Origin: Collimonas fungivorans Ter331
Lineage (GTDB): Bacteria; Pseudomonadota; Gammaproteobacteria; Burkholderiales; Burkholderiaceae_D
Length of the DNA: 64,000 nt
Direction of reading: 5' to 3'
Assembly (NCBI RefSeq): GCF_000221045.1
Contig: NC_015856.1
Span: 4,174,542-4,238,541 of the forward strand
The notes below the pieces were generated by a model. It made no database searches, had not been told where the DNA came from, and saw only the letters and a program-made list of their open reading frames with translations. This document shows positions 9,084-35,387 of the stretch, one piece after another. Numbering within the stretch: position 1 is the first letter of the stretch; each line of letters opens with the position of its first letter. Both the position numbers and the translations under genes were made by a program.

Positions 9084-9125
9084 TAAAAACGCTGGCGCCT
9101 ATGCCTATCATTGCCGCGGCACATC

Positions 9126-12856: not shown

Positions 12857-12860
12857 GGTT

Positions 12861-13549: not shown

Positions 13550-13675
13550 TAAGACAAATCCTACATGCAATTCGGCAACTTGTGGGGACCATGGCATAGC
13601 GACAATATTTCAGGAAAAATCCGACACACTGAATCGCGCCTCCCTACATCGTTTCTGCCGCAACAGCCGGACAAT
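13550..13675. promoter_or_regulatory. Shared regulatory region of the BvgA-like operon and the EAL gene
   Basis: Two box-like sequences are present: TAAGACAAATCCTA (13550-13563) and CAGGAAAAATCCGA (13611-13624). A GACAAT hexamer at 13670-13675, facing the EAL gene, is centred exactly 55 bp from the second box, the spacing found at the four adhesin and secretion promoters. For the BvgA-like gene a TATTGT hexamer (13515-13520, minus strand) is the best -10 seen. Confidence 0.5.
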
Positions 13676-18421: not shown

Positions 18422-18425
18422 GATC

Positions 18426-19673
18426 TCACCTCTCCCGGAAGGCTTCACGCGCCTTGAACACCGGTTTCAGCAGGTAATCCAGGATGGTTTTCTCGCCAGT
18501 GCGGATTTCCATCGTGGCCGTCATGCCGGGAATGATCGGCAAGCGCTTGCCGCCTGCCTCCAGGTAGCTGCTGTCGGTCAGCACCTGCACCCGGTAATAG
18601 GTGGCATCGCGGCCGGCCGCGGCCTTGGCGTCGTCCGTCAGCGTATCGGGGCTGATCAGTTCCACGGTGCCCTTGAGGCCGCCGTACACGCCGTATTCAT
18701 AGGCCGAGACTTTCACGGTGGCGGGCAGGCCCGGCCGCAGGAAGGCGACGTCGGCCGGCTTGATCTTGCCTTCGACCAGAAGCTGGTCTTCCAGCGGCAC
18801 GATTTCCATGATGTGCTCGCCCGGCTGGATCACGCCGCCTATGGTATTGACCTTGATGTTCTTGATAGTGCCGCGCACCGGCGCCAGCACCGTGGTGCGC
18901 TCGACGATATCGGCGCGCCCGACCAGGTTCTCTGTGGTCTGCGACAGTTCCTGTTCCAGCTTGCTCAGCTCGGAATTGGCGTCGGCCTGGTACTTGTTGC
19001 GCCGTTCCACCATCTGCGATTTCAGTTCGTTGGCCTGGCGCCGCATGCGCAGGATTTCCACTTCCGACACCAGGCCCTTGGCTGCCAACGGCTCGGCCAG
19101 GCCGATTTCCCTGGCGCTCAGGTTGTAGCTGTTCTGCAGCGACGACAAACTGTCGTCCAAGGCGTGGCGACGGGCGTTATAGGCCAGCGTTTCCTGCTGC
19201 ACCACGGCCGGATCTTTCTTGACGATGTCCGGGAACGCCAGCGGTTGCTGGTAAGCCTCGGCGCGCAAACGGGCGATCGAGCCTTCCAGGCCGATCTGCT
19301 TGGAGAGCGCTTCGCGATAGCTGGCCTGGGCCCGGGTCGGATCGATCTTGAGCAGGATCTGCCCCTTCTCGACGATGCCGCCTTCGCGCACGTCCATCGC
19401 CGCCAGGATGCCGCCTTCCAGGCTCTGGATCACCTGTTCGCGGCTCTTGGAAATGATCTTGGCTTCGCCCTGGGTGATCTCCTCGACCTTGGCGAATTTC
19501 GCCCAGGTCAGGCCCACTACCATGACTACCGCGATCAGGTACAGGACGGCTTTCGAACCCGGCGTAGTCTGGGTCAGCAGCGATTCCCGCAGATCGTTCA
19601 TGAACGCCGCGTCGCCCGGCTGCAGCTGGGCAGCATCGGGCTTGCTTCGTCGAATCCATTGCATCCATTTCAT
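18426..19673 (-). CDS. Type I secretion periplasmic adaptor (HlyD/LapC family)
   Basis: A 415-residue membrane fusion protein. It has a short cytosolic N-terminus, one membrane helix (AVLYLIAVVMVVGLTWAKF, ~42-60), a lipoyl/barrel segment (KIISKSREQVIQSLEGGILAAMDVREGGIVEKGQ split around the hairpin), a long helical hairpin (~110-260) and a C-terminal beta region ending in TGEKTILDYLLKPV, the typical HlyD finish. It links the ABC exporter in the inner membrane to the TolC-type channel. It lies between these two genes. Its stop is immediately followed by the TolC-like start, with the ribosome binding site overlapping its last codons. Confidence 0.93.
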   Translation of the reverse strand: MKWMQWIRRSKPDAAQLQPGDAAFMNDLRESLLTQTTPGSKAVLYLIAVVMVVGLTWAKFAKVEEITQGEAKIISKSREQVIQSLEGGILAAMDVREGGIVEKGQILLKIDPTRAQASYREALSKQIGLEGSIARLRAEAYQQPLAFPDIVKKDPAVVQQETLAYNARRHALDDSLSSLQNSYNLSAREIGLAEPLAAKGLVSEVEILRMRRQANELKSQMVERRNKYQADANSELSKLEQELSQTTENLVGRADIVERTTVLAPVRGTIKNIKVNTIGGVIQPGEHIMEIVPLEDQLLVEGKIKPADVAFLRPGLPATVKVSAYEYGVYGGLKGTVELISPDTLTDDAKAAAGRDATYYRVQVLTDSSYLEAGGKRLPIIPGMTATMEIRTGEKTILDYLLKPVFKAREAFRER

Positions 19674-19749
19674 AACTACACCTTTTGTCCAAATATTCCG
19701 TTAATTGATTGCGCGGCAGCCGCCGCTTTTTCTTGTTCGTCCAATGCCT

Positions 19750-19840
19750 CGTAGGGTGGGCACAACATGCCCACGCGGAAATTTTCTATATATCCATTTC
19801 GTGAGCACGAGAGACGGCGCTCCGGTTATCGTGGTCACGC
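19750..19840. repeat. Partial REPIN at the 3' end of the ABC exporter gene
   Basis: A forward REP (19750-19778) is followed by spacer sequence ending CTCCGGTTATCGTGGTCACGCGG. The same spacer (CTCCGGTTATCGCGGTCACGCG) precedes the second REP of the pdxA REPIN. The ABC exporter stop codon (TCA on this strand, 19835-19837) lies inside this shared sequence. Confidence 0.75.
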
Positions 19841-22245: not shown

Positions 22246-22332
22246 ATTTTAGAGGGGGGATGACGTTAGGTCTGTAGGGGGCGGCGGGCGCCGTTGGGGA
22301 AAATATCCGTCATGTATGTAGGAAAAATCTGA
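22246..22332 (-). promoter_or_regulatory. Three-box promoter of the type I exporter operon
   Basis: The -10 hexamer TAAAAT (minus strand, 22246-22251) is preceded by boxes centred 33 bp (22275-22288, weak), 55 bp (GGGAAAATATCCGT, 22297-22310) and 77 bp (TAGGAAAAATCTGA, 22319-22332) upstream. The geometry is identical in three other promoters in this window. The leader to the start codon is about 180 bases. Confidence 0.7.
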
Positions 22333-22405
22333 TGCCAGGAAATATGGCTGACGGGCATGGTCTGGCGTATGTCACATGCGTTGCCGTCGCCCATTCAAGC
22401 GCCCC

Positions 22406-22586
22406 GTAGGGTGGGCACCCCGTGCCCACGCGGTACCGCCGGCATTCGTATCACGGACGTCGTGTCCCGGAACTCCGCGTGGGCACAGGTGCCCACCCTA
22501 CGAAAGGCATGCCGAGGACATTCGCATCCCGGCGCGCCCACATGGACACCGGCGCCCATGGTAGGGTGGGCACCTGTGCCCACGCT
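22406..22586. repeat. REP cluster (three copies)
   Basis: A forward copy (22406-22433), a reverse copy (22475-22502) and a forward copy (22561-22586) lie between the exporter promoter and the stop of the 510-residue secreted protein gene. The last copy ends 14 bases from that stop. Confidence 0.85.
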
Positions 22587-22600
22587 GTACTGACGGCCAT

Positions 22601-24133
22601 TTAAGCCGGCTGGTTCTCGGCGCCGTATTGTTGCAGCCAATCGAGGCCCTGCGCTGCTGGCTGGTAAGCGCTGTAGGCCTGGCCGCCAAGCGCGTCTGCG
22701 GCATGCGCCCAGTCGCTGCTGTCGGCCAGCAGGTCTTCCAGGACTAGCGTAGCGCCGGCATGGTCATGGCTCGTTGTGGTATCGGCGGCGAACAGATCCT
22801 TGGCGCCCGGCTCCAGCACGTCGCCGAGTGCCAGAGTCAACGGACTGCCGCCCGCCTCCGCCACTGCAGGCGCCTGCAGGCCATGGAACAGCGCGCTCAG
22901 ATCGAACACCTGGCTGGCGCTATCCAGTTTCAGGACGCTGCTGTCGTCGGCGCCTTCGACCTGCATCTGGCCATCGTCCGGTAGCGAGAATGCGGCATAT
23001 TCCGACACTGCGCTCGGGTGCGCGAGATCATCCGCAGACGCACCGGCTGCCGACAGCATCGCCGAGAGAGCGTCGAAATCAGCCGCAAAACCATGGCCTT
23101 GCAGCGCCTCCGGCACCAGGCCGGCATTGAAACCATCGGCTGTCGCAAGGGAGGCATTGTCGGCCTGCGGTTCCGCCTGTTCGGCCACCACTATCGTCAG
23201 ATTCGACGCCACCGTCTGGTTGCCTGCGGCGTCGGCCGCCATGGCGGTGAGCTGGTGCGCACCTTCACCCAGCTGCGGCGAGGCGCCCCAGTTGCCGTCG
23301 GCGTCGGCCTGCACGGTATCGACCAGCGCGCCGTTGTCGTACAGGGACACCCTGGCGCCCGGCTCGACCTTGCCGCCCAGGGTTGAGCCGGTGTCCGCGG
23401 GGTCGCTGGCCGACGGCTCGGCCGGCACAGGTTCCGGCATCGACTGGACCGGCGCCGCGACAGCGCCGAGGCTGTCGCGGCCGGCAAACAGCTGCCCGCC
23501 AGTCTCGCTGACCGTAATCTCATGTGCGCTGTCGACGATGGGGGCAATCTTGTGCACGCCTTCCGGGTGCGGGATTTCATGGATGAAGTCCCACGTGTGT
23601 TGCTCGTCAGCTATCGCCGGCGTGGCGTGGTGGCCGCTGTCGGCCGCCGGCTCCGTCCTGATCGCCACTTCGATTTCGTGGTGCAGCGCCGACCAGCTCT
23701 CCTCCTTTCCGTGGTTGTTGGCTGCCACGCCCGGTTTCTTTTCCGTGTTGTCAGCAGCGCCGCCGAGCGCCAGGTGGCCGACCCCGCTGTCGCCGGCTTC
23801 ATGGTGCTCGCCCTCGCCCAGCATGGCCCCGGCCGTGCTCAGCACACCATGGTTGAACTGGCCCAGGCCGTGGCGGCCGGCTGCATGGCCCTGCCCTTGC
23901 GCCTGCCTCTGGCCTTGCGCCTGCGCCGCACCCAGGGCATCGCCCATCATGCCGCTGTCGTAATCGCTTCTGGCGTCGACAGCCGTGTATTCATGGTGGG
24001 CGCCGGCGTCAGCCTCGCCCGCCGGCCGCGCATGCGCGCTGTCCGGGCTCAGGGCGGCAAACACCGCATCTTCCAGAGAGGCGTGCGGATCGTTGCCGGC
24101 GAGTGATGTGTCTGCGTTCATTGCCCTGTCCAT
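22601..24133 (-). CDS. Probable type I-secreted protein with one Ig-like (Big) domain and adhesin-type C-terminus
   Basis: A 510-residue acidic protein without an N-terminal signal peptide. Residues 1-200 are low complexity, rich in His, Ala, Gly and Gln. Residues ~245-320 form one Big-type domain (STLGGKVEPGARVSLYDNG, VDTVQADADGNW, HQLTAMAADAAGNQT) of the kind repeated 15 times in the giant adhesin. The C-terminal ~130 residues parallel the adhesin's end: VLKLDSASQVFDLSAL, LTLALGDVLEPGAKDLF, LVLEDLLADSSDW, AYSAYQ. That region should be the type I secretion signal. It is transcribed from its own three-box promoter, next to the exporter operon. ATG at 24121 is an alternative start. It may be a second substrate or an accessory matrix protein. 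Confidence 0.75.
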   Translation of the reverse strand: MDRAMNADTSLAGNDPHASLEDAVFAALSPDSAHARPAGEADAGAHHEYTAVDARSDYDSGMMGDALGAAQAQGQRQAQGQGHAAGRHGLGQFNHGVLSTAGAMLGEGEHHEAGDSGVGHLALGGAADNTEKKPGVAANNHGKEESWSALHHEIEVAIRTEPAADSGHHATPAIADEQHTWDFIHEIPHPEGVHKIAPIVDSAHEITVSETGGQLFAGRDSLGAVAAPVQSMPEPVPAEPSASDPADTGSTLGGKVEPGARVSLYDNGALVDTVQADADGNWGASPQLGEGAHQLTAMAADAAGNQTVASNLTIVVAEQAEPQADNASLATADGFNAGLVPEALQGHGFAADFDALSAMLSAAGASADDLAHPSAVSEYAAFSLPDDGQMQVEGADDSSVLKLDSASQVFDLSALFHGLQAPAVAEAGGSPLTLALGDVLEPGAKDLFAADTTTSHDHAGATLVLEDLLADSSDWAHAADALGGQAYSAYQPAAQGLDWLQQYGAENQPA

Positions 24134-24256
24134 TCCTTAGGTAAGCCGATAAGGCTGCTGCCTGGCCGGGATATCCGGGCGCACGGCAGCCGCTTGTGGC
24201 GCGATCCCTTGCTGGCGAAACACGTTCTTCGCTCACCATAGATCGATATACAGGAG

Positions 24257-24343
24257 ATTTTAGAGAGGGGATGAGGTGCGGTCTGTAGGGAGTGGCGTCC
24301 GTCGGCCGAGGATAAATCCGACATGATTGTAGGAAAAATTCTC
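24257..24343 (-). promoter_or_regulatory. Three-box promoter of the 510-residue secreted protein gene
   Basis: The -10 TAAAAT (24257-24262, minus strand) has boxes centred 33 bp (TAGGGAGTGGCGTC, 24286-24299), 55 bp (GAGGATAAATCCGA, 24308-24321) and 77 bp (TAGGAAAAATTCTC, 24330-24343) upstream. The leader is about 115-130 bases. Confidence 0.7.
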
Positions 24344-24514
24344 TTGAACGAATGGACATCCAGGTATGCCTCTAGCATCAGGGCAAGTCCGCCGGGCCAC
24401 AAGTCGGATCGGCACACTGTGACGCGAAAGTACTCCTGAAATCCGTGGGCAAGATTCCTTGCCAGCGCTAGCGGTCAGCTTTATGGGAAGCAGAAGCTAT
24501 GCTGGCAAACAGCG

Positions 24515-24826
24515 TTACACCAGATGCACTTCGAGGCGTTTTCCAAGCGCTGCCGCATATTTGCGTAATGTATTGATGCTAGGAGAGTGCTTACCCGAAG
24601 CTAATGAACTTTCCAGGCGCGCCACGGCTGGCGCCTTGGTTCCCATACGTTCGGCAATCTGTGCCTGGGTGAGTCCAGCCGCTTTGCGTGCCGCTAAAAT
24701 TTCGTCAAGAATGGCAAACTCCTCGCGATTCAAGCGTTCGTATTCAGCCTGGACAACGGGATTCTGCAGCATCCGAGCCTGCATTTCTTCATGCGTCATG
24801 GTCGGGGGAATACGTTTAGCGCTCAT
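24515..24826 (-). CDS. XRE-family antitoxin (HigA-like)
   Basis: A 103-residue protein with a central/C-terminal helix-turn-helix: ILDEILAARKAAGLTQAQIAERMGTKAPAVARLE, then SPSINTLRKYAAALGKRLEV, typical of HigA/XRE antitoxins encoded after their toxin. Its ATG overlaps the toxin's last codons (stop at 24816), so the two are cotranslated. The N-terminal ~35 residues (MTHEEMQARMLQNPVVQAEYERL) probably contact the toxin. Such antitoxins bind their own promoter. Confidence 0.88.
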   Translation of the reverse strand: MSAKRIPPTMTHEEMQARMLQNPVVQAEYERLNREEFAILDEILAARKAAGLTQAQIAERMGTKAPAVARLESSLASGKHSPSINTLRKYAAALGKRLEVHLV

Positions 24827-25190
24827 TTTTAACTTCCCTCATGCGAATTTCTGCAATCCGTTTTTCCTTAAAAGGAATTTTTTGTGTCTTCTTGACGAAA
24901 CTGTGCAGCATGACAATCTGCTTCCCGACCATCGTGCAATAAAAAACACGGGCAATGCCTTCCGCGCCCTTCAAGCGTAACTCAAGCAAGCCATTGCCAA
25001 GCACCTTGGTATGAGGCTCCCCCAAATGAGGGCCGTAAATCTTCATTCTGGCGGTCAAGCTGAGATAGCGTGCCTGCAGCGTTGCCGGCAAGGACATAAT
25101 GTCTGCCTGGATCTGTTGGCTATAGTAACTAACCTGATATTCGATAATAACATATTTGTTACAATTTGACGTGTATTTCTGTAACCTCAT
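24816..25190 (-). CDS. HigB/Gp49-like toxin (RelE superfamily)
   Basis: Up to 124 residues. The conserved part runs SLPATLQARYLSLTARM, GEPHTKVLGNGLLELRLKG, ARVFYCTMVGKQIVMLHSFVKKTQKIP, with the family's C-terminal basic KEKRIAEIRMREV. HigB-type toxins are mRNA interferases active on translating ribosomes. The start is uncertain: ATG 25190 gives a long N-terminus, while the family normally begins about 20 residues before SLPA, where only rare start codons exist in frame. A TAACA-TATT-TGTTA palindrome at 25148-25161 lies within this doubtful region and may be the operator, favouring a later start. The adjacent XRE antitoxin completes the pair. Confidence 0.82.
   Translation of the reverse strand: MRLQKYTSNCNKYVIIEYQVSYYSQQIQADIMSLPATLQARYLSLTARMKIYGPHLGEPHTKVLGNGLLELRLKGAEGIARVFYCTMVGKQIVMLHSFVKKTQKIPFKEKRIAEIRMREVKNER
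25148..25161. promoter_or_regulatory. Candidate operator palindrome of the toxin-antitoxin pair
   Basis: TAACATATTTGTTA is an inverted repeat (TAACA/TGTTA) in an AT-rich stretch at the 5' end of the toxin gene, the place expected for autoregulation by an XRE antitoxin. Confidence 0.4.
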
Positions 25191-25211
25191 GACTACACAA
25201 ATACTTATCTC

Positions 25212-25395
25212 GTGGCACCACTCCGACCTCGCATGACGGATTCGGAGAACGACACAGCGTGTTACGCGGTTTTGTTCTTTTTAGGATGAAGCATGTACTC
25301 CGTAGGCCGCTAAGTGGGGTCGGAGTGAAGTTTCTGCAAAAAGCACTGCGAAAGTTCACTCCGACCCCAGTTAGCTGCGTTTGTTGAGCGCAACG
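25212..25395. repeat. Dispersed repeat with GGGGTC palindrome, copy 3 (inverse of copy 1)
   Basis: The reverse complement matches 5893-6060 closely: it contains AACAAACGCAGCTAACTGG, the palindrome TGGGGTCGGAGTGAA ... TTCACTCCGACCCCA (25315-25369), the GAAGCATGTACTCCG segment and the module ending CATGACGGATTCGGAGAA when read on the plus strand. It lies between the toxin and the small gene at 25443. Confidence 0.85.
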
Positions 25396-25442
25396 AAAAA
25401 CCGGGGTTGGGCGTTGCCGTTCTATGAATTTCTCGATAGTGG

Positions 25443-25805
25443 TCACGTTGCCCTTTCGTGTATACCTTGACTCGCCCGTTCTGTATGCCGTTGATTGAGA
25501 ACGTCGATACGTCTTCCGGCCTGTTCCGCCAGCATGCCGGCGGCGGCCATCGTCAGGCGCGTCAGGCATTCGGTATCGGCGGCATTGAGCGTCGGCGGGC
25601 TGGCGGGATCGCCTTCCTCGCGTGCCTGGTTGCTGGCATGGATCAGGCCCAGGCAGGTTTGCATGCCTTGCGCCATGTCCAGTGTGTGCGCCAGGAATTG
25701 CATCGCGGCGTCGACGCGTAGTTCTTCAGCCAGCCATGAGAATGGCTGGTGATCGGCTTTGATTGAGGGGTGGGGAAATTGTGCAGACGTGTCGAGGCTA
25801 GCCAT
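25443..25805 (-). CDS. Small hypothetical protein (possibly DUF3077-like)
   Basis: A 120-residue soluble, mostly helical protein. The conserved-looking part is FSWLAEELRVDAAMQFLAHTLDMAQGM, which resembles small pseudomonad/Burkholderiales proteins of the DUF3077 type (memory only). The ATG at 25805 has GGAG six bases upstream; the ATG at 25817 lacks a site. It follows a strongly structured leader (25845-25930). No function is known. Confidence 0.5.
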   Translation of the reverse strand: MASLDTSAQFPHPSIKADHQPFSWLAEELRVDAAMQFLAHTLDMAQGMQTCLGLIHASNQAREEGDPASPPTLNAADTECLTRLTMAAAGMLAEQAGRRIDVLNQRHTERASQGIHERAT

Positions 25806-25844
25806 GATGAGCTCCATAATTGCGGTTAAGCCGGCTCTCGCTGC

Positions 25845-25930
25845 TAAACGGGAGGACGGCAGATGGCGGGGTTAGCAGACCGGTGCAAAAAGGAAAACCG
25901 GCAGCCCGAAGGCTCCCTACCATTGCCGTC
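25845..25930 (-). ncRNA. Candidate structured RNA leader
   Basis: Three nested helices can be drawn by eye: an outer helix GACGGCA(G)ATGG with CCATTGCCGTC, a hairpin CCGGT/ACCGG and a hairpin AGCC-CGAA-GGCT. They fit either strand. On the minus strand the element would be the 5' leader of the small gene at 25443-25805; on the plus strand it would be a short RNA ending at the terminator at 25956-25984. I could not assign it to a known riboswitch class. Confidence 0.45.
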
Positions 25931-25955
25931 CATTGAGACGTACAAAGGTTACACA

Positions 25956-25984
25956 CAAAAAAACCGCACGGCGCGGTTTTTTGT
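25956..25984. terminator. Bidirectional intrinsic terminator
   Basis: AAACCGC pairs with GCGGTTT, with A-run and T-run flanks on both sides, so it can work in both directions. It can end the DUF475 transcript (minus) or a plus-strand RNA from the structured element. Confidence 0.8.
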
Positions 25985-26094
25985 GCGCTTTTTGCATTCC
26001 AGGCTGCTAAACCTGATCCCCATTTTTTTCAGGGACAACCAACCATAAACGCGATTCTTTCCTTCGACAATACGCATTTGACCTAAACAGTTCG

Positions 26095-26197
26095 CGTAGG
26101 GTGGGCACCTGTGCCCACACGGACGTGACAAGATACAAAGCTCCGTTACACGAATATCCACGGCACCGCGTGGGCAAAAAAACCTTGCCCACCCTAC
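26095..26197. repeat. REPIN downstream of the DUF475 gene
   Basis: A forward copy (26095-26122) and a reverse copy (26167-26197) are separated by a 44-base spacer. The pair begins 35 bases beyond the DUF475 stop. Confidence 0.85.
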
Positions 26198-26232
26198 CAA
26201 GCTGTCAGCGGAAGAAGAAGCTTGCCGCGCGA

Positions 26233-27243
26233 TCAGGCCACGGCGCATTTTTCGTCATTTTTCCTGGCAATCATCGAACTTACTATAGCCAGTCCGATCA
26301 ACGCAGCGCCGGCCAGGCCAGTGACGACAGCAGGAACGTGGTAGCTGACATTGACAAACATGATGGCGCCCAGCACGCCGATGGCCCAGAAGGCGCCGTG
26401 CTCAAGGTATTTGTATTCGACCAGAGTGTTCTTGCGCAGCAGCACCAGGGTCATGCTGCGGATGTAAGCCGCGCCCACGCCCAGGCCGAGGGCGATCACG
26501 ACAATATTGTTGGACAAGGCAAAAGCGCCGATCACGCCATCGAAGCTGAACGAGGCATCGAGCACTTCCAGGTACAGGAAACCGGCGGCGCCTTCGCGCA
26601 CCACGCGGTCGCCGCTGCCGTCGCCCAGCAGGCTGCCGATGCCGTGGGCAACCACGAAACCGATCACGCCGGCGATACCGGCCAGCAGGAAAGCCACCTG
26701 CTCCGCAGCCGCCACCTGGTAAGACGCCAGCACCACCACGCCCAGGGTCAGCGCGACATCGATGGCGGCGACGCGGCCCAGCCATGCCAGCGGCGCTTCC
26801 AGCCAGCCCAGCCAGTGCGCCTCCTTGTCCCGGTCCAGCATGAACTGGAAGAACACCATCAGCAAGAATGCGCCGCCGAAAGCGGCGACCTGGTGATGCG
26901 CCGATTGCAGGATAGCCGCGTATTGGGCAGGCGATTCCAGCGCCAGGGTGAGCGCCGACCAGAAATCCATATTGGCCAGGATCGCCACGATCAGCAGGGG
27001 AAAGATGAAGCGCATGCCGAACACGGCCACCGGCAGGCCGTAGGTCATGAAACGGTCCTGCCATTTTTTCGACCAGTTTTTCAGTACCGAGGCGTTGACC
27101 ACGGCATTGTCCAGCGACAGCGAAATTTCCAGCACCAGCAGGATGGCGACGATCAGCATGTCTTCCACGCCGCCCATCAGGTAAGCGATCAGCAAGGCCA
27201 GCAAGGTCAGGGACAGCGGGATTTTGAAATTTTGCAGCAGCAT
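26233..27243 (-). CDS. DUF475/TerC-superfamily integral membrane protein
   Basis: A 336-residue protein with about nine membrane helices. The family's acidic intramembrane motifs are visible: VLEISLSLDNAVVNASVL (~38-55) and, in the second half, LEVLDASFSFDGVIGAFAL. TerC-like proteins are proposed metal (Mn2+/Ca2+) transporters, some of which help metallate exported proteins. The ATG at 27243 starts MLLQNFKIP. Upstream is a three-box promoter with the same geometry as the adhesin and secretion promoters, so it appears co-regulated with them. No tellurite genes are near. Confidence 0.9.
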   Translation of the reverse strand: MLLQNFKIPLSLTLLALLIAYLMGGVEDMLIVAILLVLEISLSLDNAVVNASVLKNWSKKWQDRFMTYGLPVAVFGMRFIFPLLIVAILANMDFWSALTLALESPAQYAAILQSAHHQVAAFGGAFLLMVFFQFMLDRDKEAHWLGWLEAPLAWLGRVAAIDVALTLGVVVLASYQVAAAEQVAFLLAGIAGVIGFVVAHGIGSLLGDGSGDRVVREGAAGFLYLEVLDASFSFDGVIGAFALSNNIVVIALGLGVGAAYIRSMTLVLLRKNTLVEYKYLEHGAFWAIGVLGAIMFVNVSYHVPAVVTGLAGAALIGLAIVSSMIARKNDEKCAVA

Positions 27244-27382
27244 AGGATTTCTTTCACAAGGAGACAGGACGCATGCGTCATCGTCGCGGCAGTCGCTGCC
27301 CCGAACCTCCAACGCTGCCGTGCCGGCAGATATCGATGGCCGGCCACACTGCCATCCGCAGATCCAGTGTGTTGAAGAGGCG

Positions 27383-27469
27383 ATTGTAGGGAGGGCGCGA
27401 TGTGGGGTCTGTCGGGAAAGATTGGCATCGCCAGGAAATAAATCCGAAGGATGTGCAGGAAAAATCCTA
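27383..27469 (-). promoter_or_regulatory. Three-box promoter of the DUF475 gene
   Basis: The -10 TACAAT (27383-27388, minus strand) has boxes centred 33 bp (TCGGGAAAGATTGG, 27412-27425), 55 bp (GGAAATAAATCCGA, 27434-27447) and 77 bp (CAGGAAAAATCCTA, 27456-27469) upstream. The leader is about 130 bases. Confidence 0.7.
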
Positions 27470-27532
27470 TGTTGCACGTTGCTTGTCCTTGGCCGCCTGC
27501 GAGCCCGCCCACATTACTGATGCTTGCCTGAC

Positions 27533-27574
27533 CAAAAAATGAGGGCCGCTTAGCATATGGTGCTAAGCGGCCCT
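27533..27574 (-). terminator. Terminator of the OmpA-like gene
   Basis: AGGGCCGCTTAGCA pairs with TGCTAAGCGGCCCT. On the minus strand it is followed by a run of T residues (ATTTTTT). It ends transcription coming from the OmpA-like gene. Confidence 0.85.
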
Positions 27575-27592
27575 GACTACATGCATCCAGAG

Positions 27593-27623
27593 GTAGGGTG
27601 GGCAGATTTCTGCCCACCCTACG
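27593..27623. repeat. Symmetric REP element
   Basis: GTAGGGTGGGCA followed by TGCCCACCCTAC makes a perfectly symmetric version of the repeat, six bases beyond the OmpA-like stop. Confidence 0.8.
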
Positions 27624-27628
27624 GCCAA

Positions 27629-28585
27629 TCAGTTCTTGCGCTGTCCTTCAACCCGCACCACCACGCGCCGGTTCGGCTCGTTGCAGGCGATGTTGGCTGG
27701 CGTGGCTGTCTTGCGGCAGCTGTCGTCGACCGGTTCGGTATTGCCGCGGCTTTCGGTCTGGATCAGCTGGGCCGGGATACCGTTCTCGGCCAGGGATTGC
27801 TTGACCGTCGCTGCGCGGGCTGCACCCAGGCGTTGTGCTGCATCGGCTTTACCGATCAAGTCGGCATGGCCGATCACGGTGATGTGCTTGATGCCTTCAG
27901 GCTGCGCCTGCAGGGTCTGCGCCAGCTTGGCCAATTCGGTACGGCCGGCGGCGCTGATGTCGCGGTAGCCGGATTTGCCGAAGGCGAACAAGACGTCGCT
28001 GCTCAGGGTGTAGTCTTTATAGGCCGGCGCTGCTACCGGGGCAGCATAGGCGGCGCCGTTGTTGCAAGCCTGCACCGCAGAAGCGCGCGACAAGGCGTGG
28101 ATCTGGTCACGGGAATTGGCGAGTTCACGCTCGGCAACATCACGCGCAACCGGCACCGGGGCGCCGCTGCTGCCGTCTTCCGTCGCTTTCAGGAAGTAGG
28201 TGGCGCCGTCAGCCAGATTGGCCTTGAACAGATCCACGGTCTTGCCCTTGTACAGCGGCTGGTCGTTCAGATAAGCGCCCAGGGTGTGGGAGCCGGGAGC
28301 GACACAGAACACTGAGTAGCCGCCTGGCAGCAGCGAGGTCTGGAATTCGCCGTCCACGTACACGTGGGCGCCGCCTGCTGTGCGCTGGCCGGCCGGGATG
28401 GCGCGGTAGTACACCACCTGGGCCTGGCCTGGCTTGACGGTCGGCACCGGGCTGTAGGTGGCGCCGAAAATCTGGCGCTCCGCCTTGCCGGCTTGCGCTT
28501 CTTGCGCCGCGGCCGGCATGGCGGCGGCGAACAGCAGCGCACCGCTCAATGCCGCGCTAAAGATAAATTTCGAATGTTTCAACAT
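27629..28585 (-). CDS. OmpA-family outer-membrane/peptidoglycan-associated protein
   Basis: A 318-residue protein with a signal peptide (MLKHSKFIFSAALSGALLFAAAMPAAAQ). A first domain (~40-150) has GGAHVYVDGEFQTSLLPGGYS. A C-terminal OmpA-like domain (~195-315) has DVLFAFGKSGYRDISAAGRTEL, ITVIGHAD, LGAARAATVKQSL and CNEPNRRVVV; it should bind peptidoglycan. It lies downstream of the giant adhesin in the same direction, with a REPIN in the 175-bp gap. OmpA-like proteins commonly accompany type I adhesins (as LapE-associated or anchoring factors), so an accessory role is likely. It ends at a strong terminator. Confidence 0.88.
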   Translation of the reverse strand: MLKHSKFIFSAALSGALLFAAAMPAAAQEAQAGKAERQIFGATYSPVPTVKPGQAQVVYYRAIPAGQRTAGGAHVYVDGEFQTSLLPGGYSVFCVAPGSHTLGAYLNDQPLYKGKTVDLFKANLADGATYFLKATEDGSSGAPVPVARDVAERELANSRDQIHALSRASAVQACNNGAAYAAPVAAPAYKDYTLSSDVLFAFGKSGYRDISAAGRTELAKLAQTLQAQPEGIKHITVIGHADLIGKADAAQRLGAARAATVKQSLAENGIPAQLIQTESRGNTEPVDDSCRKTATPANIACNEPNRRVVVRVEGQRKN

Positions 28586-28660
28586 GGTTTAGCTCCAGTC
28601 CGGCAACATGGCCGGACGAATAAATTAAAAAAAGACTTCAATGAAGGCTGCAAGGAACTG

Positions 28661-28738
28661 CGTAGGGTGGGCAGGTTTTTCTGCCCACGCTGTATTGCTC
28701 AAGGAGCACACCGCGTGGGCACAGGTGCCCACCCTACG
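28661..28738. repeat. REPIN between the adhesin and OmpA-like genes
   Basis: A forward copy (28661-28690) and a reverse copy (28711-28738) start 22 bases after the adhesin stop. They could stabilise or attenuate the transcript between the two genes. Confidence 0.85.
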
Positions 28739-28759
28739 TCTTGCCGCAGAGAGAAAGCG

Positions 28760-31700
28760 TTAGCTCAGGTTGGTGGTGACTCCCTGCTGCACCAGCAGCT
28801 CGGCCTCGAGGCCGGTATGCTGGTACACGTTGTACGCCACGCCTTCGACTGTCACCGAGCCGGCGGCCTGGGTCCAGTCGCCTTCAGCATTGACGCCTTC
28901 CAGCAAGTCATCCAGGTTGACGACGTCGCCGGCATCGCCCTTGACCATCATCTGGGTCTTGCCGTCGTCGATGAACAAGCCCTTGCCGCCCTGCTCCAGG
29001 ACGTCGTTGAGCGACAGGTGCAGGGTGTTGTCGCCGGTGCCGGTGATGTCAATCACCTTGACGTCGGCGACCTTGGCCTGCTCGGCCGCAGTCAGCGCAG
29101 AGATATCCAGCACCTGGTTGGCGCCTTCCAGCACCAGCACAGGGCTGTCGCCTGCTTGCTCGACGTGTACCTGGACATCTTCCTGCACGGTGAACGACGC
29201 AGCCCCCTCAATCACTGGAGCCGGATCGTCAGCAGGATTGTGCGTGCTGGTCGTTGCATCGTCGTCATTCGCCGTCGCATCGTCCTGGCCTGCAGTGGCA
29301 TGCGTCAGACTGTCTACGCTGCTGGCATCCTGGGGCACTTCTTCCGTTCCAAAGGTGCCAACTGGGGGATACAGCACTCCGTTGACCACGATGTTGTCAT
29401 ATGTCCACCAGTCCATGCTTCCCGCATCCGGCCCATTGACTAAAATGCCTGGCGTCATTCTGAAACTGCTGAAATAAGAGCCCGCAGGAAGATTGAAGCT
29501 AATCTGCTGGAAACCAGTATCAAAGCCAGCATTGATTGCTTGTGTTCCTACCACAGCCCCGTTTTTATCCAGGAATTCGATCATGCCAGGGCCCATATTC
29601 GTATTGATGTTACCAATCCGGATTGAAATCCCTGTTGCCTCTCCAGCATTGTCAATAGCAACCGTAACAATGCCATTTGCGGCCAGCTTATTGCTGGTAT
29701 TTCCCGGATCGAAAGTAGGGTCGGCTGGACCGATGCCGTTAAAACTATTCGGTGTTTGTAGATTAGTAACGGAAAAACGCAATCCGTTATGGACAAACGA
29801 TTGGTCTGCCGTACCAAAATTAGCAGTAGCCATTGCGTCGAAATTCTCACTCAATGCCACCGGAGCAAACGGCACGACATTCAAACCGTAGGGGGCTGAA
29901 TCCGGACTTGTATTGCCCGCCACATCGGTTTGCGTTGCGGTATAGGTATGGCCGCCCACTGGCGCATTCACATCGATGGTCCATGTGCCGTCCGGCCGGA
30001 CTTGCGCCGAGCCGACTATGTTAGCGCCGTCAAACAGCGTCACGATAGCGCCAACCTCGCCCCTGCCGCTGATCGTCGGGGTGGAATCATCAGTCGTGCC
30101 GCCGTTGCCGATGTTGCCGGTAATCCCAACGTTATCGAGCACATTGTCAATCGTCGGTGCCGCTGGCGCCGTGGTATCCAAGATCAGATCATAGTTGTTC
30201 GACACCGGGCTAGAATTGCCCGCTGCATCTTCCGACACTGCGGTGAACGTATGGCTACCATCGCCAGCCAGTGCCGGAACGTCAAATACCCAACGATCCG
30301 TACCGCTATCGGCCGTGGCCGAGCCGATGACGTTGGCGCCGTCACGGATGAAGACGATGCTGCCGCGTTCTGCTGTACCGCTCAGCTGCGGGGTGTTGTC
30401 ATTGGTGAGGCCGCCGCTGCCGATATTGCCGGTATGTCCCAGCACATCGTCGAAGGCGTTGTCAATCGTCGGTGCCGCTGGCGCATCGGTATCGATGACG
30501 ATATCCCATGGATCGGACGGTTCGCTGGTGTTGCCGGCCGGATCTTCGACCACGATGATGAACTCATGGTCGCCAGGATTGAGCGGCGTGGTCGGGGTGA
30601 ATTCCCATCTGCCGTCGTCACCCACAATGGCAGTGCCGATCGGATCGCCGCCATCGCTGATGATGACCTTGTCGCCCGGATCGAGGCCATCGCCGACCAG
30701 GGTCGGGGTGGTGTCGTCGGTGACGCCGCCGTCGCTCGGGATGGTGCCGGTATGGTCGCCAACGTTGTCAATGACGTCGCCGATGGCTGGCTTGCCTGGC
30801 GCGGTGATGTCCACTGTCAGGTCGAACTCATTGCTGTCGCTGACCACGCCGGCGGCGTTGGTAGACGTAGCCGTGATGGTGTGCGGACCTTCGGTCAAGG
30901 TCGGAGTGAACTCCCAGTTGCCGAGGCCATCGGCCATGACTGAACCGACCGCAACCGGGTTGCCGTCGACGTAGATGTGGACCAGGCTGTTGGCGGTAGC
31001 CGTGCCGTGCACGGTCGGCGTGGTGTCGTCGGTGACGCCATGGTTGGCGATCGGTCCAGTGATGCTGCCCTCGTTGTCATCGACCTGGGTGATGGCAATC
31101 GCCACGGCGCTGGTGTCGACGATGAAGTGGGTCGGAGCCGAGACCGGGCTGGTGTTGCCAGCCTGGTCCACTACCTGGTTGCTGATGGTGTGCGGACCGT
31201 CGGCCAGCGGGGTCTCTGGCGTATAAGTCCAGTTGCCGCCGGCGTCGACCGGCACGGTCTTGACCGGCACGCCATCGACGATGACGACCACGCTGGTGCC
31301 TGGCTCGGCCTTGCCGCTGTAAGTCGGGTTGGCGTCGTCGGTGGTGTCGTTGTCGGCAATTTCGCCGGTGCGCGCACCGATGTCATCGATCAGGGTCAAG
31401 TCGGTTGCAGCAGCCGGAATACCGGTATCGATATTGATCGGGTATTGGCCGGTCGACACGCCGCCAGCGCTGGCGGTAAAGTTGTGCAAGCCGTCGGCCA
31501 GCGGGCTAGCCGCTGGTACCGGGAAGCTCCAGTTGCCGTCCGCATCGGAAGTCGCTGAACCCAGTGGCGCCGGGTTACCGTCGACATAAACCATGACCAC
31601 AGAACCGGCCGGTGCAGTACCGACTACTACCGGGGTATTGTCGTTGGTGAAGCCGTTCTGGGCAACATTGACCGGGCTGGCGCCGTCGTCGTCGATCACG

Positions 31701-34700
31701 CCGATGATGGCGGGCGCCGTCGGCACGCCGCCGGTGGCCACATCCAGGTCAAACTGGTTGCTTGGATCGCTGACGTTGCCGGCAGCGTCGGTGGCCTTGG
31801 CGGTCAGGTTATGCGCACCCAGGTCGAGCGGGAAGTCTGGCGTGATGGTCCAGTCGCCGCTGGCGTTTGCCTGGGTGGAACCGACGGCTTTGTCGCCATC
31901 GTACAAGGTGACGATGCTGCCAGGTTCAGCCTTGCCGCTGACGGTCGGTTGCGCATCGTCGGTGGCTGGGCCGCCCGAAGTCAGCGGGCCGGTCGAAGCG
32001 CCCTGGTCGTCGATGACCAGGTCGATGGTCGGCGCATCCGGCACACCGGTATCGATGACGATATCCCATGGATCGGACGGATCGCTGGTGTTGCCGGCCG
32101 GATCTTCCACCACAATGGTGAACTCATGGTCGCCCGGGTTCAACGGCGTGGTGGGGGTGAATTCCCACTTGCCGTCGTCACCCACGATCGCGGTGCCGAT
32201 AGGATTGCCGCCATCGCTGATGATGACCTTGTCGCCCGGAGTGAGACCGCCGCCGACCAGGGTCGGGGTGGTGTCGTCGGTGACGCCGCCGTCGCTCGGG
32301 ATGCTGCCGGTCTGGGTGCCAACGTCGTCGATAACGTCGCCGATTTCCGGCTTGGCTGGGGCAGTGGTGTCGACCGTCAGGTCGAACTCATTGCTGTCGC
32401 TGACCACGCCGGCGGCGTTGGTCGAGGTTGCCGTGATGGTGTGCGGACCTTCGGTCAGGGTTGGGGTAAATACCCAATCGCCGTTGCCATCGGCCATCAC
32501 TGAACCGACTGCAACCGGGTTGCCGTCGACGTAGATGTGCACCAGGCTGTTGGCGGTGGCTGTGCCGTGTACGGTCGGTGTGGTGTCGTCAGTGACGCCA
32601 TGGTTGCTGATCGGACCGGTGATGCTGCCTTCATTGTCATCGACCTGGGTGATGGCAATCGTTACGGCGCCGGTGTCGACGATGAAATGGGTCGGGGCAG
32701 AGACCGGGCTGCTGTTGCCAGCCTGGTCCACTACCTGGTTGCTGATGGTGTGCGCACCGTCGGCCAGTGGGGTCTCTGGCGTATAAGTCCAGTTGCCACC
32801 GGCGTCGACCGGCACGGTCTTGACCGGCACGCCATCAACGATGACAACCACGCTGGTGCCTGGCTCGGCCTTGCCGCTGTAAGTCGGGTTGGCGTCGTCG
32901 GTGGTGTCGTTGTCGGCAATTTCGCCGGTGCGCGCACCGACGTCATCGATCAGCGACAGATCGGTCGAGGCGCCTGGCGCCGTGGTATCGATGTTGATCG
33001 GATATTGACCGGTCGACACGCCGCCAGCGCTGGCGGTAAAGTTGTGCAAGCCGTCTGTCAGCGGGTTAGCCGCCGGCACCGGGAAGCTCCAGTTGCCGTC
33101 AGCATCGGACGTGGCCGAACCCAGTGCGACCGGGTTGCCGTCGACATAGATCATGACCACGGAACCGGCAGGTGCAGTACCGATTACCACCGGGGTATTG
33201 TCGTTGGTGAAGCCGTTCTCGGCAACAGGGACAGGCGTTGCGCCGTTGTCGTCGTTCACGCCGATGATGGCGGGCGCCGTCGGCACGCCGCCGGTAGCCA
33301 CATCCAGGTCGAACTGGTTGCTTGGATCGCTGATATTGCCGGCAGCATCGCTGGCCTTGGCGGTCAGGTTATGCTCACCCAGGGACAGCGGGAAGTCTGG
33401 CGTGATGGTCCAGTTACCGCTGGCGTCCGCCTTGGTGGAGCCGACAGCTTTGTCGCCGTCGTACAAGGTGACGATGCTGTTCGGTTCGGCCTTGCCGCTG
33501 ACGGTCGGTTGCGCATCGTCGGTGGCTGGGCCGCCCGAGGTCAGCGGGCCGGTCGAAGCGCCCTGGTCGTCGATGACCAGGTCGATGGTCGGTGCATCCG
33601 GCGCCAGGGTGTCGATGTTCACGGTCCATGGATCGGACGGATCGCTGGTGTTGCCAGCCGGATCGGTAACAACGACGGTGAAGTCATGCTTGCCGTCATC
33701 CAGCGGCGGCGGGGTGAATTCCCACTTGCCGTCGTCGCCCACGATCGCGGTGCCGATAGGATTGCCGCCATCGCTGATGACCACGGTGCTGCCAGGCGTC
33801 AGGCCGCCACCGCCGCCGCCGCTCAGGGTCGGGGTGTTATCGTCGGTATCACCGCCGTTAGGGATGGTGCCGGTCTTGCTGCCGACGTCGTCAGTGACGT
33901 CGCCGATGGCTGGCTTGCCTTCCATGGTGTCGACCACGACCACCCAGTCTGCCGATGGCAGGCCGACATTGCCGGCGGCGTCAGTCGCCGTGGCGGTGAA
34001 TTTGTGCGGGCCGTCAGGCAGTTCGCTGGAGGTGATGGTCCAGTTGCCGTCAGCGTCGGCGACAATGCTGCCAACCTCGTTGCCGTCGGCGTACAGCTTG
34101 ACCAGCGAACCGGCTTCAGCCTTGCCGCTCAGGGTCGGGGTCTTGTCGTCGGTCATGGCGCCGTTGTCGAGGAAGCCAGTGCTGCTGCCGGCGTCGTCCA
34201 AGGCCGATTCGATCAGGACCTGGGCTGGCGCGACCGTGTCGATGATGATATCGCGGCCGTCCGATGGCGGTTTGCCGTCTTCGATCACGACGATCTCATG
34301 CGGGCCGTCGTCCAGAGGATTGTCAGGGGTAAATGTCCACTTGCCGTCGTCGTCGACGATGGTCGAGCCGATCGGCTTGCCGTTGTCGATGATGGTGATG
34401 ACTTTACCCGGGGTGCCGCCGTCGCCGATGATGGTTGGGGTGTTGTCGTCAGTGCTGCCGCCGGGAGGAATCGAGCCGGTGGTGGTGCCGACGTTGTCGG
34501 TGATGTCGCCGATGGTCAGCTTGCCGTCGCCAGGATTGCCTGGGTTGCCGCCGTCGCCGGGATTGCCTGGGTTGCCGCCGTTGCCGCCGCCGTTATCGCC
34601 AGCAAGCGCCGCGCCGATCAGGCCCAGCGCGCCCAGGCCGAACAGGCCAAGGCCAAGCCAGCTCATGCCGGCTGCAGGCACCAGGCCGCTGCCGAAGCCG

Positions 34701-35104
34701 ACCAGCGGGTTGCGGCCGAGCACCAGCGGGGAACTCACGCCTTCGCCCAGCATGCCGGCTTCATGGTTAGCTTCCGCATCGGAAGCGATGTATTCGTAAT
34801 ATGCGCCGTCTTCGGCCACGCCGACCAGCTCTTCGCCCTGCCCGTCTGCGCTGTAGAAACCTTCGATGATCAGCTCAGGATCTTCGTAACCGGTACCTTC
34901 CAGGGACACGTGCAGGTCGTTGCCGACGCGGTGTACGGTGATGTTTTCCGGGGCTGCGCCGGTGTCGGCATCGGCCAGGATGAATTTGCCGCCCTTGATG
35001 GCTTTCACCTTGGTGGCGGAACCTTGCTTGGTCGTGCGGAGGTCCACGCTCTGCGTGATTTCCTTGCCATCGACCACGATTACTTTAACTGCGCTTGCTG
35101 CCAT
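28760..35104 (-). CDS. Giant BapA-like type I-secreted adhesin with 15 Ig-like (Big) repeats
   Basis: A 2114-residue protein without an N-terminal signal peptide. Residues 1-~130 match the BapA-prefix type domain (VIVVDGKEITQSVDLR, FILADADTGAAPENITV). A hydrophobic Gly-rich segment (~147-168) and a GGNPGNPGDG linker follow. Then come 15 Big domains of ~104 residues (typical start IGDVTDDVGSKTGTIPNGG), a jelly-roll-like domain (~1760-1910, ENFDAMATANFG ... WWTYDNIVVNG), and the secretion C-terminus (VLVLEGANQVLDISALTA, LHLSLNDVLEQGGKGLF). It should be exported by the ABC/HlyD/TolC set and held at the surface for biofilm or attachment. Domains 4-8 and 9-13 are a 1560-bp tandem duplication. It is transcribed from a three-box promoter. 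Confidence 0.93.
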   Translation of the reverse strand: MAASAVKVIVVDGKEITQSVDLRTTKQGSATKVKAIKGGKFILADADTGAAPENITVHRVGNDLHVSLEGTGYEDPELIIEGFYSADGQGEELVGVAEDGAYYEYIASDAEANHEAGMLGEGVSSPLVLGRNPLVGFGSGLVPAAGMSWLGLGLFGLGALGLIGAALAGDNGGGNGGNPGNPGDGGNPGNPGDGKLTIGDITDNVGTTTGSIPPGGSTDDNTPTIIGDGGTPGKVITIIDNGKPIGSTIVDDDGKWTFTPDNPLDDGPHEIVVIEDGKPPSDGRDIIIDTVAPAQVLIESALDDAGSSTGFLDNGAMTDDKTPTLSGKAEAGSLVKLYADGNEVGSIVADADGNWTITSSELPDGPHKFTATATDAAGNVGLPSADWVVVVDTMEGKPAIGDVTDDVGSKTGTIPNGGDTDDNTPTLSGGGGGGLTPGSTVVISDGGNPIGTAIVGDDGKWEFTPPPLDDGKHDFTVVVTDPAGNTSDPSDPWTVNIDTLAPDAPTIDLVIDDQGASTGPLTSGGPATDDAQPTVSGKAEPNSIVTLYDGDKAVGSTKADASGNWTITPDFPLSLGEHNLTAKASDAAGNISDPSNQFDLDVATGGVPTAPAIIGVNDDNGATPVPVAENGFTNDNTPVVIGTAPAGSVVMIYVDGNPVALGSATSDADGNWSFPVPAANPLTDGLHNFTASAGGVSTGQYPINIDTTAPGASTDLSLIDDVGARTGEIADNDTTDDANPTYSGKAEPGTSVVVIVDGVPVKTVPVDAGGNWTYTPETPLADGAHTISNQVVDQAGNSSPVSAPTHFIVDTGAVTIAITQVDDNEGSITGPISNHGVTDDTTPTVHGTATANSLVHIYVDGNPVAVGSVMADGNGDWVFTPTLTEGPHTITATSTNAAGVVSDSNEFDLTVDTTAPAKPEIGDVIDDVGTQTGSIPSDGGVTDDTTPTLVGGGLTPGDKVIISDGGNPIGTAIVGDDGKWEFTPTTPLNPGDHEFTIVVEDPAGNTSDPSDPWDIVIDTGVPDAPTIDLVIDDQGASTGPLTSGGPATDDAQPTVSGKAEPGSIVTLYDGDKAVGSTQANASGDWTITPDFPLDLGAHNLTAKATDAAGNVSDPSNQFDLDVATGGVPTAPAIIGVIDDDGASPVNVAQNGFTNDNTPVVVGTAPAGSVVMVYVDGNPAPLGSATSDADGNWSFPVPAASPLADGLHNFTASAGGVSTGQYPINIDTGIPAAATDLTLIDDIGARTGEIADNDTTDDANPTYSGKAEPGTSVVVIVDGVPVKTVPVDAGGNWTYTPETPLADGPHTISNQVVDQAGNTSPVSAPTHFIVDTSAVAIAITQVDDNEGSITGPIANHGVTDDTTPTVHGTATANSLVHIYVDGNPVAVGSVMADGLGNWEFTPTLTEGPHTITATSTNAAGVVSDSNEFDLTVDITAPGKPAIGDVIDNVGDHTGTIPSDGGVTDDTTPTLVGDGLDPGDKVIISDGGDPIGTAIVGDDGRWEFTPTTPLNPGDHEFIIVVEDPAGNTSEPSDPWDIVIDTDAPAAPTIDNAFDDVLGHTGNIGSGGLTNDNTPQLSGTAERGSIVFIRDGANVIGSATADSGTDRWVFDVPALAGDGSHTFTAVSEDAAGNSSPVSNNYDLILDTTAPAAPTIDNVLDNVGITGNIGNGGTTDDSTPTISGRGEVGAIVTLFDGANIVGSAQVRPDGTWTIDVNAPVGGHTYTATQTDVAGNTSPDSAPYGLNVVPFAPVALSENFDAMATANFGTADQSFVHNGLRFSVTNLQTPNSFNGIGPADPTFDPGNTSNKLAANGIVTVAIDNAGEATGISIRIGNINTNMGPGMIEFLDKNGAVVGTQAINAGFDTGFQQISFNLPAGSYFSSFRMTPGILVNGPDAGSMDWWTYDNIVVNGVLYPPVGTFGTEEVPQDASSVDSLTHATAGQDDATANDDDATTSTHNPADDPAPVIEGAASFTVQEDVQVHVEQAGDSPVLVLEGANQVLDISALTAAEQAKVADVKVIDITGTGDNTLHLSLNDVLEQGGKGLFIDDGKTQMMVKGDAGDVVNLDDLLEGVNAEGDWTQAAGSVTVEGVAYNVYQHTGLEAELLVQQGVTTNLS
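30481..33600. repeat. Tandem duplication of a 1560-bp five-domain block in the adhesin gene
   Basis: Copies 30481-32040 and 32041-33600 align at a constant 1560-bp offset (520 codons, five Big domains each) with only scattered differences, for example the line starting TCAGCGGGCC at both 31981 and 33541. High identity suggests recent unequal crossing-over. Confidence 0.9.
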
Positions 35105-35300
35105 GATAATAATTCCTTAAAAGACTGAATTGCTTAATGTGAACGGTGGTAGCGACGGTACGCCACAACACGGTTGTGCCGCTTGAGACTGCGGTCTTGC
35201 GCGTGCCGGCGTGTCCGATAAAATCAGCTACACCCCATGCGCAGTAAAACCCGGCCGTGAAAGACATCTTTCGTGGTTGCCGAGCTTCGACGTAGAGCGG

Positions 35301-35387
35301 ATTTTAGAGATGAGACAACTTGCGGTCTGTAGGCTCGAATTGACTTCGGCAGAGGAAAAATCCGCAAAGAAAGTAGGACAAGTCCGA
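35301..35387 (-). promoter_or_regulatory. Three-box promoter of the giant adhesin gene
   Basis: The -10 TAAAAT (35301-35306, minus strand) has boxes centred 33 bp (35330-35343, weak), 55 bp (GAGGAAAAATCCGC, 35352-35365) and 77 bp (TAGGACAAGTCCGA, 35374-35387) upstream. The ~190-base leader begins CCGCTCT..GTCGA..., closely like the leader of the exporter operon. Confidence 0.72.

Follow-up and report, generated by a model that had tools for sequence, protein, structure and literature searches.

The locus examined here raises the question of what could bring the scattered genes of an adhesin island under common control in Collimonas fungivorans Ter331, a soil bacterium related to known fungus-feeders. 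The window, by which we mean the whole 64-kb stretch of DNA that was analysed (1.2% of a genome of 5,186,898 bp in one contig), carries on its minus strand, from high to low coordinates, the genes for a giant adhesin, an OmpA-family protein, a DUF475 protein, a protein of 510 amino acids (aa), a type I secretion system (T1SS), a NarL-family response regulator and a hybrid sensor (Table 1). A preliminary description of this DNA had proposed that four promoters share one geometry of three boxes and a -10 hexamer, and that a nearby BvgA-like regulator drives all four units by binding as three phased dimers. Our analysis indicates that the four are probably activator-dependent promoters of the neighbouring BvgA/RocA-like regulator, through which an adhesion module would be co-expressed. 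The candidate regulon appears real and is well supported at the level of sequence; its mechanism is of a familiar kind, and both its cargo and its host genus are new.

Layout of the four promoters

All four promoters lie on the minus strand and present their elements in one order, namely box 1 (14 bp), 8 bp, box 2 (14 bp), 8 bp, box 3 (14 bp), the hexamer CAGACC, 17 bp and the -10 hexamer, which is TAAAAT in three cases and TACAAT in one. The coordinates, the -10 hexamers and the distances of 33, 55 and 77 bp from the -10 to the box centres had been given correctly and are exact in 4/4. The earlier account of the promoters, sound as to boxes and -10, had nevertheless overlooked CAGACC, which occupies the -35 position in all four, abuts box 3, lies exactly 17 bp from the -10 and has only GAC in common with the TTGACA consensus. 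Two of the three proposed boxes are full boxes, whereas the third is a half-site: the matrix scores of box 3 (-17.6 to -3.3) indicate no full site, and its downstream half CC(T/G)A alone is kept.

An alignment of ten promoters, which are not independent of one another, was assembled from the own genome (four) and from two others of the genus, G012 and G003 (three each), leaving out the G012 promoter of the 510-aa gene, a near-copy of our own. Inspected by eye, box 1 is followed by C in 10/10 and by CA in 9/10, and box 3 by CA in 10/10. The CA after both boxes suggests a half-site reaching as far as TCCTACA, and that one protein recognises the downstream half of box 3 as a true half-site along with the full boxes.

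Comparison with chance expectation

The matrix used for the chance test was built from six boxes of genome G003 only. With it, the four promoter pairs were the top four at spacing 22 in the window and ranked 2, 3, 4 and 5 among the 4,220,073 pairs at spacings 14-79, rank 1 being a 61-bp pair (13550/13611) in the intergenic region between the regulator and receiver-EAL genes. A spacing-22 pair at least as strong as the weakest of the four appeared in 0/200 Markov-simulated windows, so that the shared geometry is above chance. Counting spacing-22 pairs gave four in the window against a mean of 0.03 in 100 simulations, a comparison that is partly circular because the matrix then included the window's own boxes.

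Pattern searches gave results of the same kind. The strict pattern TMGGANWWNTCCKA with at most one mismatch occurred nine times against 0.60 expected (one of the nine, at 21168, falls within the exporter gene), and TAGGAAAAATCCTA with at most two mismatches yielded 36 matches genome-wide, 8 of them in the window, where the reversed control yielded 18; of the 28 matches outside the window, the six that were examined (L002 and L004-L008) had no strong partner at 21-23, 43-45 or 66 bp. When the own genome was searched with a model of the four promoters, the same four alone were returned at E <= 10 (150 of 879 first-look candidates scored), and a ten-promoter model returned the identical four alone at that threshold (150 of 1915 scored). 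The four units first described were thus recovered, although they are probably an undercount, and with 150 first-look candidates covered in each search weaker targets have possibly been missed.

Conservation in the genus

The comparison set comprised 15 genomes of the genus, own included, of which three (own, G012 and G003) encode a regulator at 95-100% identity. Strong promoter matches occurred in those three; G012 has four and G003, whose assembly is fragmented, has three and no match to the DUF475 promoter. Weak matches of model R1 in G005 and G013 (E 0.008 and 0.016) were gone with R2, the ten-promoter model, and were taken as chance.

All spacings are kept in the 3/3 orthologous promoter pairs between our genome and G003. 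Over these pairs identity amounted to 31/42 in box 1, 29/42 in box 2, 15/21 in the downstream half of box 3, 17/18 in the -35-position hexamer and 15/18 in the -10; it was 13/24 and 10/24 in the 8-bp spacers, 28/51 in the 17-bp spacer and 23/90 in the 30 bp just upstream of the promoters. Several sites at 22 bp centre to centre, the third a half-site only, are present in 4/4 own promoters and in 3/3 of the G003 orthologues found, and in 10/10 aligned promoters the nearest site stands against a non-consensus -35 placed 17 bp from the -10.

Further candidate members of the regulon

The regulon is probably larger than four units and may extend to the receiver-EAL gene and to YadA-type adhesins. 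A likely fifth promoter precedes the receiver-EAL gene; its layout is the same in G012 and has one base more between the boxes in G003, and the -10-like hexamer at offset 55 from its box was also picked by an offset scan. Divergent from the giant adhesin gene of G003 there is a YadA-type adhesin gene preceded by box, 8 bp, box 3, CAGATC, 17 bp and TACACT. G010, whose regulator is 58% identical to ours, carries beside it two fimbrial operons, in each of which a FimA gene comes first and chaperone and usher genes come after it. Their promoters read box, 8 bp, half-box, CATCTT, 17 bp and TAGACT; the fimbrial operons of G010 and the adhesin island seem to share one promoter grammar with different cargo. 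Among 25 strong boxes unused for the matrix (both strands), six have a -10-like hexamer at offset 55, including one orthologous and one paralogous pair.

Other boxes are candidates of a looser kind. The single box at 13550 may serve autoregulation; the canonical offset of 77 was rejected for it, the sole -10-like hexamer at a canonical offset sitting inside the gene start, and by eye no convincing -10 was seen at the expected place at the regulators' own promoters in the window, L072, L087, L089 and L103. The perfect box at 9070 is joined at +22 by a second, weak one, shows CATCAT at offset 55, and precedes a DUF4096 open reading frame (ORF) and a gene with weak Wzz/GNVR matches. As a separate observation, that ORF (8523-8987, minus strand; DUF4096 is the N-terminal domain of IS4/5-type transposases) lies between the sensor gene and the gene with the below-cut-off Wzz/GNVR matches, and by eye a similar ORF stands at the same place in G003 (L069 4896-5405, minus strand), behind the conserved box; it is possibly a domesticated gene. 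A two-box model match (L133, G012:C1:3371425; E 0.009) was also observed upstream of a eukaryotic-type carbonic anhydrase gene.

The regulator as candidate binder

The regulator and sensor genes lie 9-22 kb away from the four promoters, and boxes flank the regulator gene itself, in the region that separates it from the receiver-EAL gene. The segment KTVSTYKTRL of the helix-turn-helix (HTH) domain is the same in 5/5 aligned regulators. Over 22 loci with a relative of the regulator (a set without L080, where the regulator is at the contig end), 7 have, in the 500 bp ahead of the relative's gene, a strong pair spaced 21 or 22 bp, namely L070, L072, L087 (Paraburkholderia), L089 (a Pseudomonas aeruginosa plasmid) and L103-L105 (one genus); the best such pair is weak in the remaining 15 loci, among them our window. 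Counts were also made over 26 relative loci, from which L079 had been excluded because it shares a contig with L069, and L088 because its match is partial. There were 8 pairs spaced 21 bp, 11 spaced 22 bp and at most 6 at any other spacing, with three of the 8 coming from L103-L105 and eight of the 11 from G010 and G002, both of this genus. Among the listed best pairs with a summed score of at least 22, 5/8 were at 21-22 bp, a figure not relied on; the remaining three draw again on boxes from L070 and L072.

Evidence against and alternative explanations

Several observations weigh against activation of the four units by the neighbouring regulator. A rank test of box pairs was not specific to spacings of 21-22 bp: the best pair lay upstream of the regulator in 5 and 6 of 19 loci at these spacings against 1-9 elsewhere, after dropping L104 and L105 (genus and boxes as L103) and L085 (species as L084). 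Box 3 scores as no site, and between our genome and G003 the 30 bp that follow the -10 agree as well (64/90) as the boxes do, so that conservation alone cannot single the boxes out. The regulator and the adhesin island are inherited together, which confounds the co-occurrence of regulator and promoters. The regulator's own promoter, with the box at 13550, is off the canonical geometry and the box at 58873 is without it, while the carbonic anhydrase match was found in G012 only. Half of the hexamers found at offset 55 (GACAAT, CATCAT and GATCAT, of six) are weak as -10s, and offset 21 is over-represented too, with 8 cases against 6 at offset 55 among the unused boxes; three of the eight are orthologues of the 58873 box, and we read the offset-21 cases as AT-rich flanks rather than promoters.

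The alternative that survives best is that the arrays are real activator sites bound by another regulator of the NarL/LuxR family, the BvgA-like protein being a bystander or one of several binders. We regard this as unlikely. Response regulators are numerous in this genome (73 first-look candidates, some of them not of the NarL type), and the motifs of RocA1, RocA2 and RocA3 of Pseudomonas are closely alike and their in vitro targets overlap, according to the excerpted text of PMC12051241. However, only one own-genome protein matched the regulator at E <= 1e-40 (52 of the 73 candidates scored), boxes occur between the regulator and receiver-EAL genes and also next to the regulator of G010 (58% identical), and strong promoter matches are found only with a close orthologue, an association that co-inheritance could explain as well.

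It is less probable still that one promoter was recently duplicated with its gene, in which case the geometry would reflect history and not function. The promoters do share sequence beyond the boxes (mean column identity of 59% over a 456-column alignment), and those of the exporter and the adhesin are alike in their early transcribed sequence. Against this, the four gene families differ, although the adhesin and the 510-aa protein are both Ig-like (immunoglobulin-like), the G003 orthologues have diverged just upstream of the promoters and yet keep the spacings and the -35-position hexamer, and the geometry recurs at the receiver-EAL and FimA genes with other sequence between the elements. Equally improbable is binding of the boxes by a repressor or by a nucleoid protein. 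In its favour, such proteins can recognise palindromes rich in AT, and the 58873 box is near a gene start without the canonical geometry. Against it, the boxes of the four promoters sit at activator positions ahead of a poor -35 and do not cover the promoter core, and a -35 matching only GAC of TTGACA is as in activator-needing promoters (PMC7250471, in excerpt).

Proposed mechanism

From the promoters, their geometry, their conservation and the gene content, all read from sequence, we infer binding, cooperativity, activation, phosphorylation and feedback in the following manner. Activation by the neighbouring regulator would act on sigma-70 promoters that have a poor -35 hexamer and depend on an activator. 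The phosphorylated regulator would bind as dimers in 22-bp steps along one face of the DNA, nucleating at boxes 1 and 2, the strong ones, which are centred near -86.5 and -64.5, and spreading cooperatively onto the half-kept box at about -42.5, where it would touch the -35 and recruit RNA polymerase. Expressed together would be the giant Ig-repeat adhesin and its OmpA-family partner, the type I secretion apparatus, the Ig-domain accessory protein and the DUF475 protein. The neighbouring sensor would set the phosphorylation of the regulator, and the product of the divergent receiver-EAL gene, whose promoter is a shortened form of the others, would provide feedback, probably through competition for phosphate and not through hydrolysis of cyclic di-GMP (c-di-GMP).

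If this is true, the promoter plan known from the whooping-cough bacterium extends to a soil genus and to another route of adhesin secretion, a non-pathogen model of cooperative multi-dimer activation becomes available, and the genes switched together for attachment to surfaces or fungi can be predicted. The order strong box, 8 bp, half-site, hexamer, 17 bp and -10 would then be a rule by which regulons of the BvgA/RocA type may be read from genomes.

Comparison with known systems

BvgA half-sites, like those of the Collimonas boxes, are of the TAGGAAA/TTTCCTA type, and BvgR of Bordetella is an EAL protein too. In the excerpted text of PMC7250471 and PMC8087692, FeBABE mapping places BvgA dimers every 22 bp, with three at fha; the strongest site is furthest upstream at fha and fim3 and the nearest abuts the -35; and ptx has a non-consensus -35, 17 bp from a TAAAAT -10, the poor -35 being required for regulation. 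The Collimonas promoters resemble fha, fim3 and ptx in their 22-bp sites on one face with the nearest against the -35 and in their adhesin targets, ptx also in the non-consensus -35 placed 17 bp from TAAAAT, and the locus resembles BvgAS in having a hybrid sensor (tandem SBP_bac_3, PAS, HisKA, receiver and Hpt) beside a NarL-type regulator. This element-by-element match argues for cooperative activation by the neighbouring regulator. Unlike in Bordetella, the targets are a type I secretion adhesin island and not FHA (none of the four units encodes an FHA-type, two-partner adhesin, the adhesin being an Ig-repeat protein beside the T1SS), the -35-position hexamer is one fixed sequence, CAGACC, and a receiver-EAL gene is divergent to the regulator.

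The term BvgA-like is only half of the description: the BvgS-type sensor, the NarL-type regulator, the boxes in its own region and the 22-bp phasing bear it out, but the locus is organised like the Roc/Sad trio of Pseudomonas (RocS1-RocA1-RocR), in which sensor, regulator and receiver-EAL genes also lie together and the last is divergent to the regulator. Identity to a plasmid-borne trio of P. aeruginosa is 52% for the regulator, 43% for the sensor and 31% for the receiver-EAL protein, whose gene there is annotated rocR, and two boxes spaced 22 bp precede the regulator gene of that trio. In Pseudomonas, RocR acts as an antagonist of RocA1 and is a phosphodiesterase of the receiver-EAL type (PMC3083521 and PMC12051241, both in excerpt). 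The targets of Roc (cup fimbriae, lepBA and efflux genes) differ from the T1SS adhesin island found here, and the literature searched, likewise in excerpt and with the supplementary RocA motif figure outside the search, describes no 22-bp promoter plan for Roc. No chaperone-usher genes were found among the subset of window ORFs scanned, and two such operons lie beside the G010 relative.

The receiver-EAL protein also differs from RocR in its EAL domain. Paired aspartates and EGVE-type glutamates of this domain have catalytic roles; compared with P. aeruginosa RocR they are replaced in the own, G012 and G003 proteins, so that the domain lacks these motif residues, and the protein still passes the Pfam EAL cut-off (133 bits). 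The motifs look degenerate; hydrolysis is not expected, and a phosphate-competing role is suggested. A broader reading, which we hold only tentatively and at somewhat less than even chances, is that the 22-bp-step promoter did not originate with Bordetella but is a grammar shared by the BvgA/RocA group into which any adhesin type can be plugged (chaperone-usher fimbriae, T1SS Ig-repeat adhesins or trimeric autotransporters), the Collimonas receiver-EAL protein acting as a pseudo-enzyme that competes for phosphate under the same array.

EvgA and EvgS are the best NCBIfam matches of regulator and sensor; identity with EvgAS was rejected, the scores being under the curated cut-offs (172.8 of 251 bits and 545.1 of 1995, respectively). 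The cargo itself resembles T1SS adhesins of the BapA/LapA/SiiE type in its Ig-repeat giant, LssB-type exporter, HlyD adaptor and OEP protein. Control of the adhesin by c-di-GMP in the LapG manner was set aside, as no LapG-family protease (PF06035) was matched in the genome, a family matched in 1/14 control genomes; unlike in LapG-type systems, control would be placed at the promoter.

Other features of the island

The coordinates of promoters, boxes, genes and repeats are collected in Table 1. The nearest named relative is a metagenome-assembled genome of Collimonas fungivorans, whose regulator is 95% identical.

Table 1. Features of the window, with positions counted from its first letter.
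Feature	Position	Strand	Elements and remarks
Giant adhesin promoter	35301..35387	-	box 1 35374-35387; box 2 35352-35365; half-box 3 35330-35343; CAGACC 35324-35329; TAAAAT 35301-35306; predicted start ~35294; orthologues in G012, G003
DUF475 promoter	27383..27469	-	box 1 27456-27469; box 2 27434-27447; half-box 3 27412-27425; CAGACC 27406-27411; TACAAT 27383-27388; predicted start ~27376; orthologue in G012
510-aa protein promoter	24257..24343	-	box 1 24330-24343; box 2 24308-24321; half-box 3 24286-24299; CAGACC 24280-24285; TAAAAT 24257-24262; predicted start ~24250; orthologues in G012, G003
Type I secretion operon promoter	22246..22332	-	box 1 22319-22332; box 2 22297-22310; half-box 3 22275-22288; CAGACC 22269-22274; TAAAAT 22246-22251; predicted start ~22239; orthologues in G012, G003
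Likely fifth promoter, receiver-EAL gene	13611..13675	+	box 13611-13624; half-box 13633-13646 (ATCGCGCCTCCCTA); CATCGT 13647-13652; 17 bp; GACAAT 13670-13675
Single strong box, candidate autoregulation	13550..13563		centre 69 bp before regulator gene
Perfect box TAGGAAAAATCCTA, candidate target	9070..9083		just past sensor gene; equivalent in G003
Box before YadA-type trimeric autotransporter gene	58873..58886		~70 bp before the gene; kept in G012, G003
Giant Ig-repeat adhesin, 2114 aa	28760-35104	-	unit 27629..35104 with OmpA-family gene
OmpA-family gene	27629-28585	-	after giant adhesin, same unit
Terminator-like hairpin	27542-27574		separates adhesin-OmpA unit from DUF475 promoter
DUF475/TerC-family membrane protein	26233..27243	-	start 27243 placed by NCBIfam match
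510-aa protein	22601..24133	-	one Ig-like domain
Type I secretion operon, whole	16316..22057	-	
LssB-type ABC exporter	19835-22057	-	type I secretion operon
HlyD-type adaptor	18426-19673	-	type I secretion operon
OEP-domain outer-membrane protein	16316-18448	-	type I secretion operon
BvgA/RocA-like NarL-family response regulator, 208 aa	12861-13487	-	
BvgS/RocS-like hybrid sensor	9197-12886	-	SBP_bac_3 x2, PAS, HisKA, HATPase, receiver, Hpt
Receiver-EAL protein, PvrR/RocR-like	13718-14902	+	divergent from regulator gene
GC-rich repeat GTAGGGTGGGCAC/GTGCCCAC	9100-9190, 22477-22585, 26090-26200		three places matched by eye

The 510-aa protein had been called secreted in the preliminary description, a label that we do not retain: no classical signal peptide was seen in it by eye, no predictor being used, and its appearance is rather that of a substrate of type I secretion or of an accessory protein. 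The DUF475/TerC-family protein (26233-27243) stands under the adhesin type of promoter, and a supply of metal to a calcium-stabilised adhesin would be a guess at its role.

Just upstream of the 510-aa promoter (24515-25190, minus strand) an HTH_3 gene overlaps a small gene of the Gp49 family, which is HigB-like, and the two resemble a toxin-antitoxin pair. Between the 510-aa and DUF475 genes there are adjoining Rfam matches to C4 antisense RNA (RF01695) and isrK (RF01394) at 25848-26036 on the minus strand; both are RNAs that occur in phages, and the pair is possibly a prophage remnant within the adhesin island. Several intergenic sites carry a GC-rich repeat built around GTAGGGTGGGCAC together with GTGCCCAC, partly as inverted repeats.

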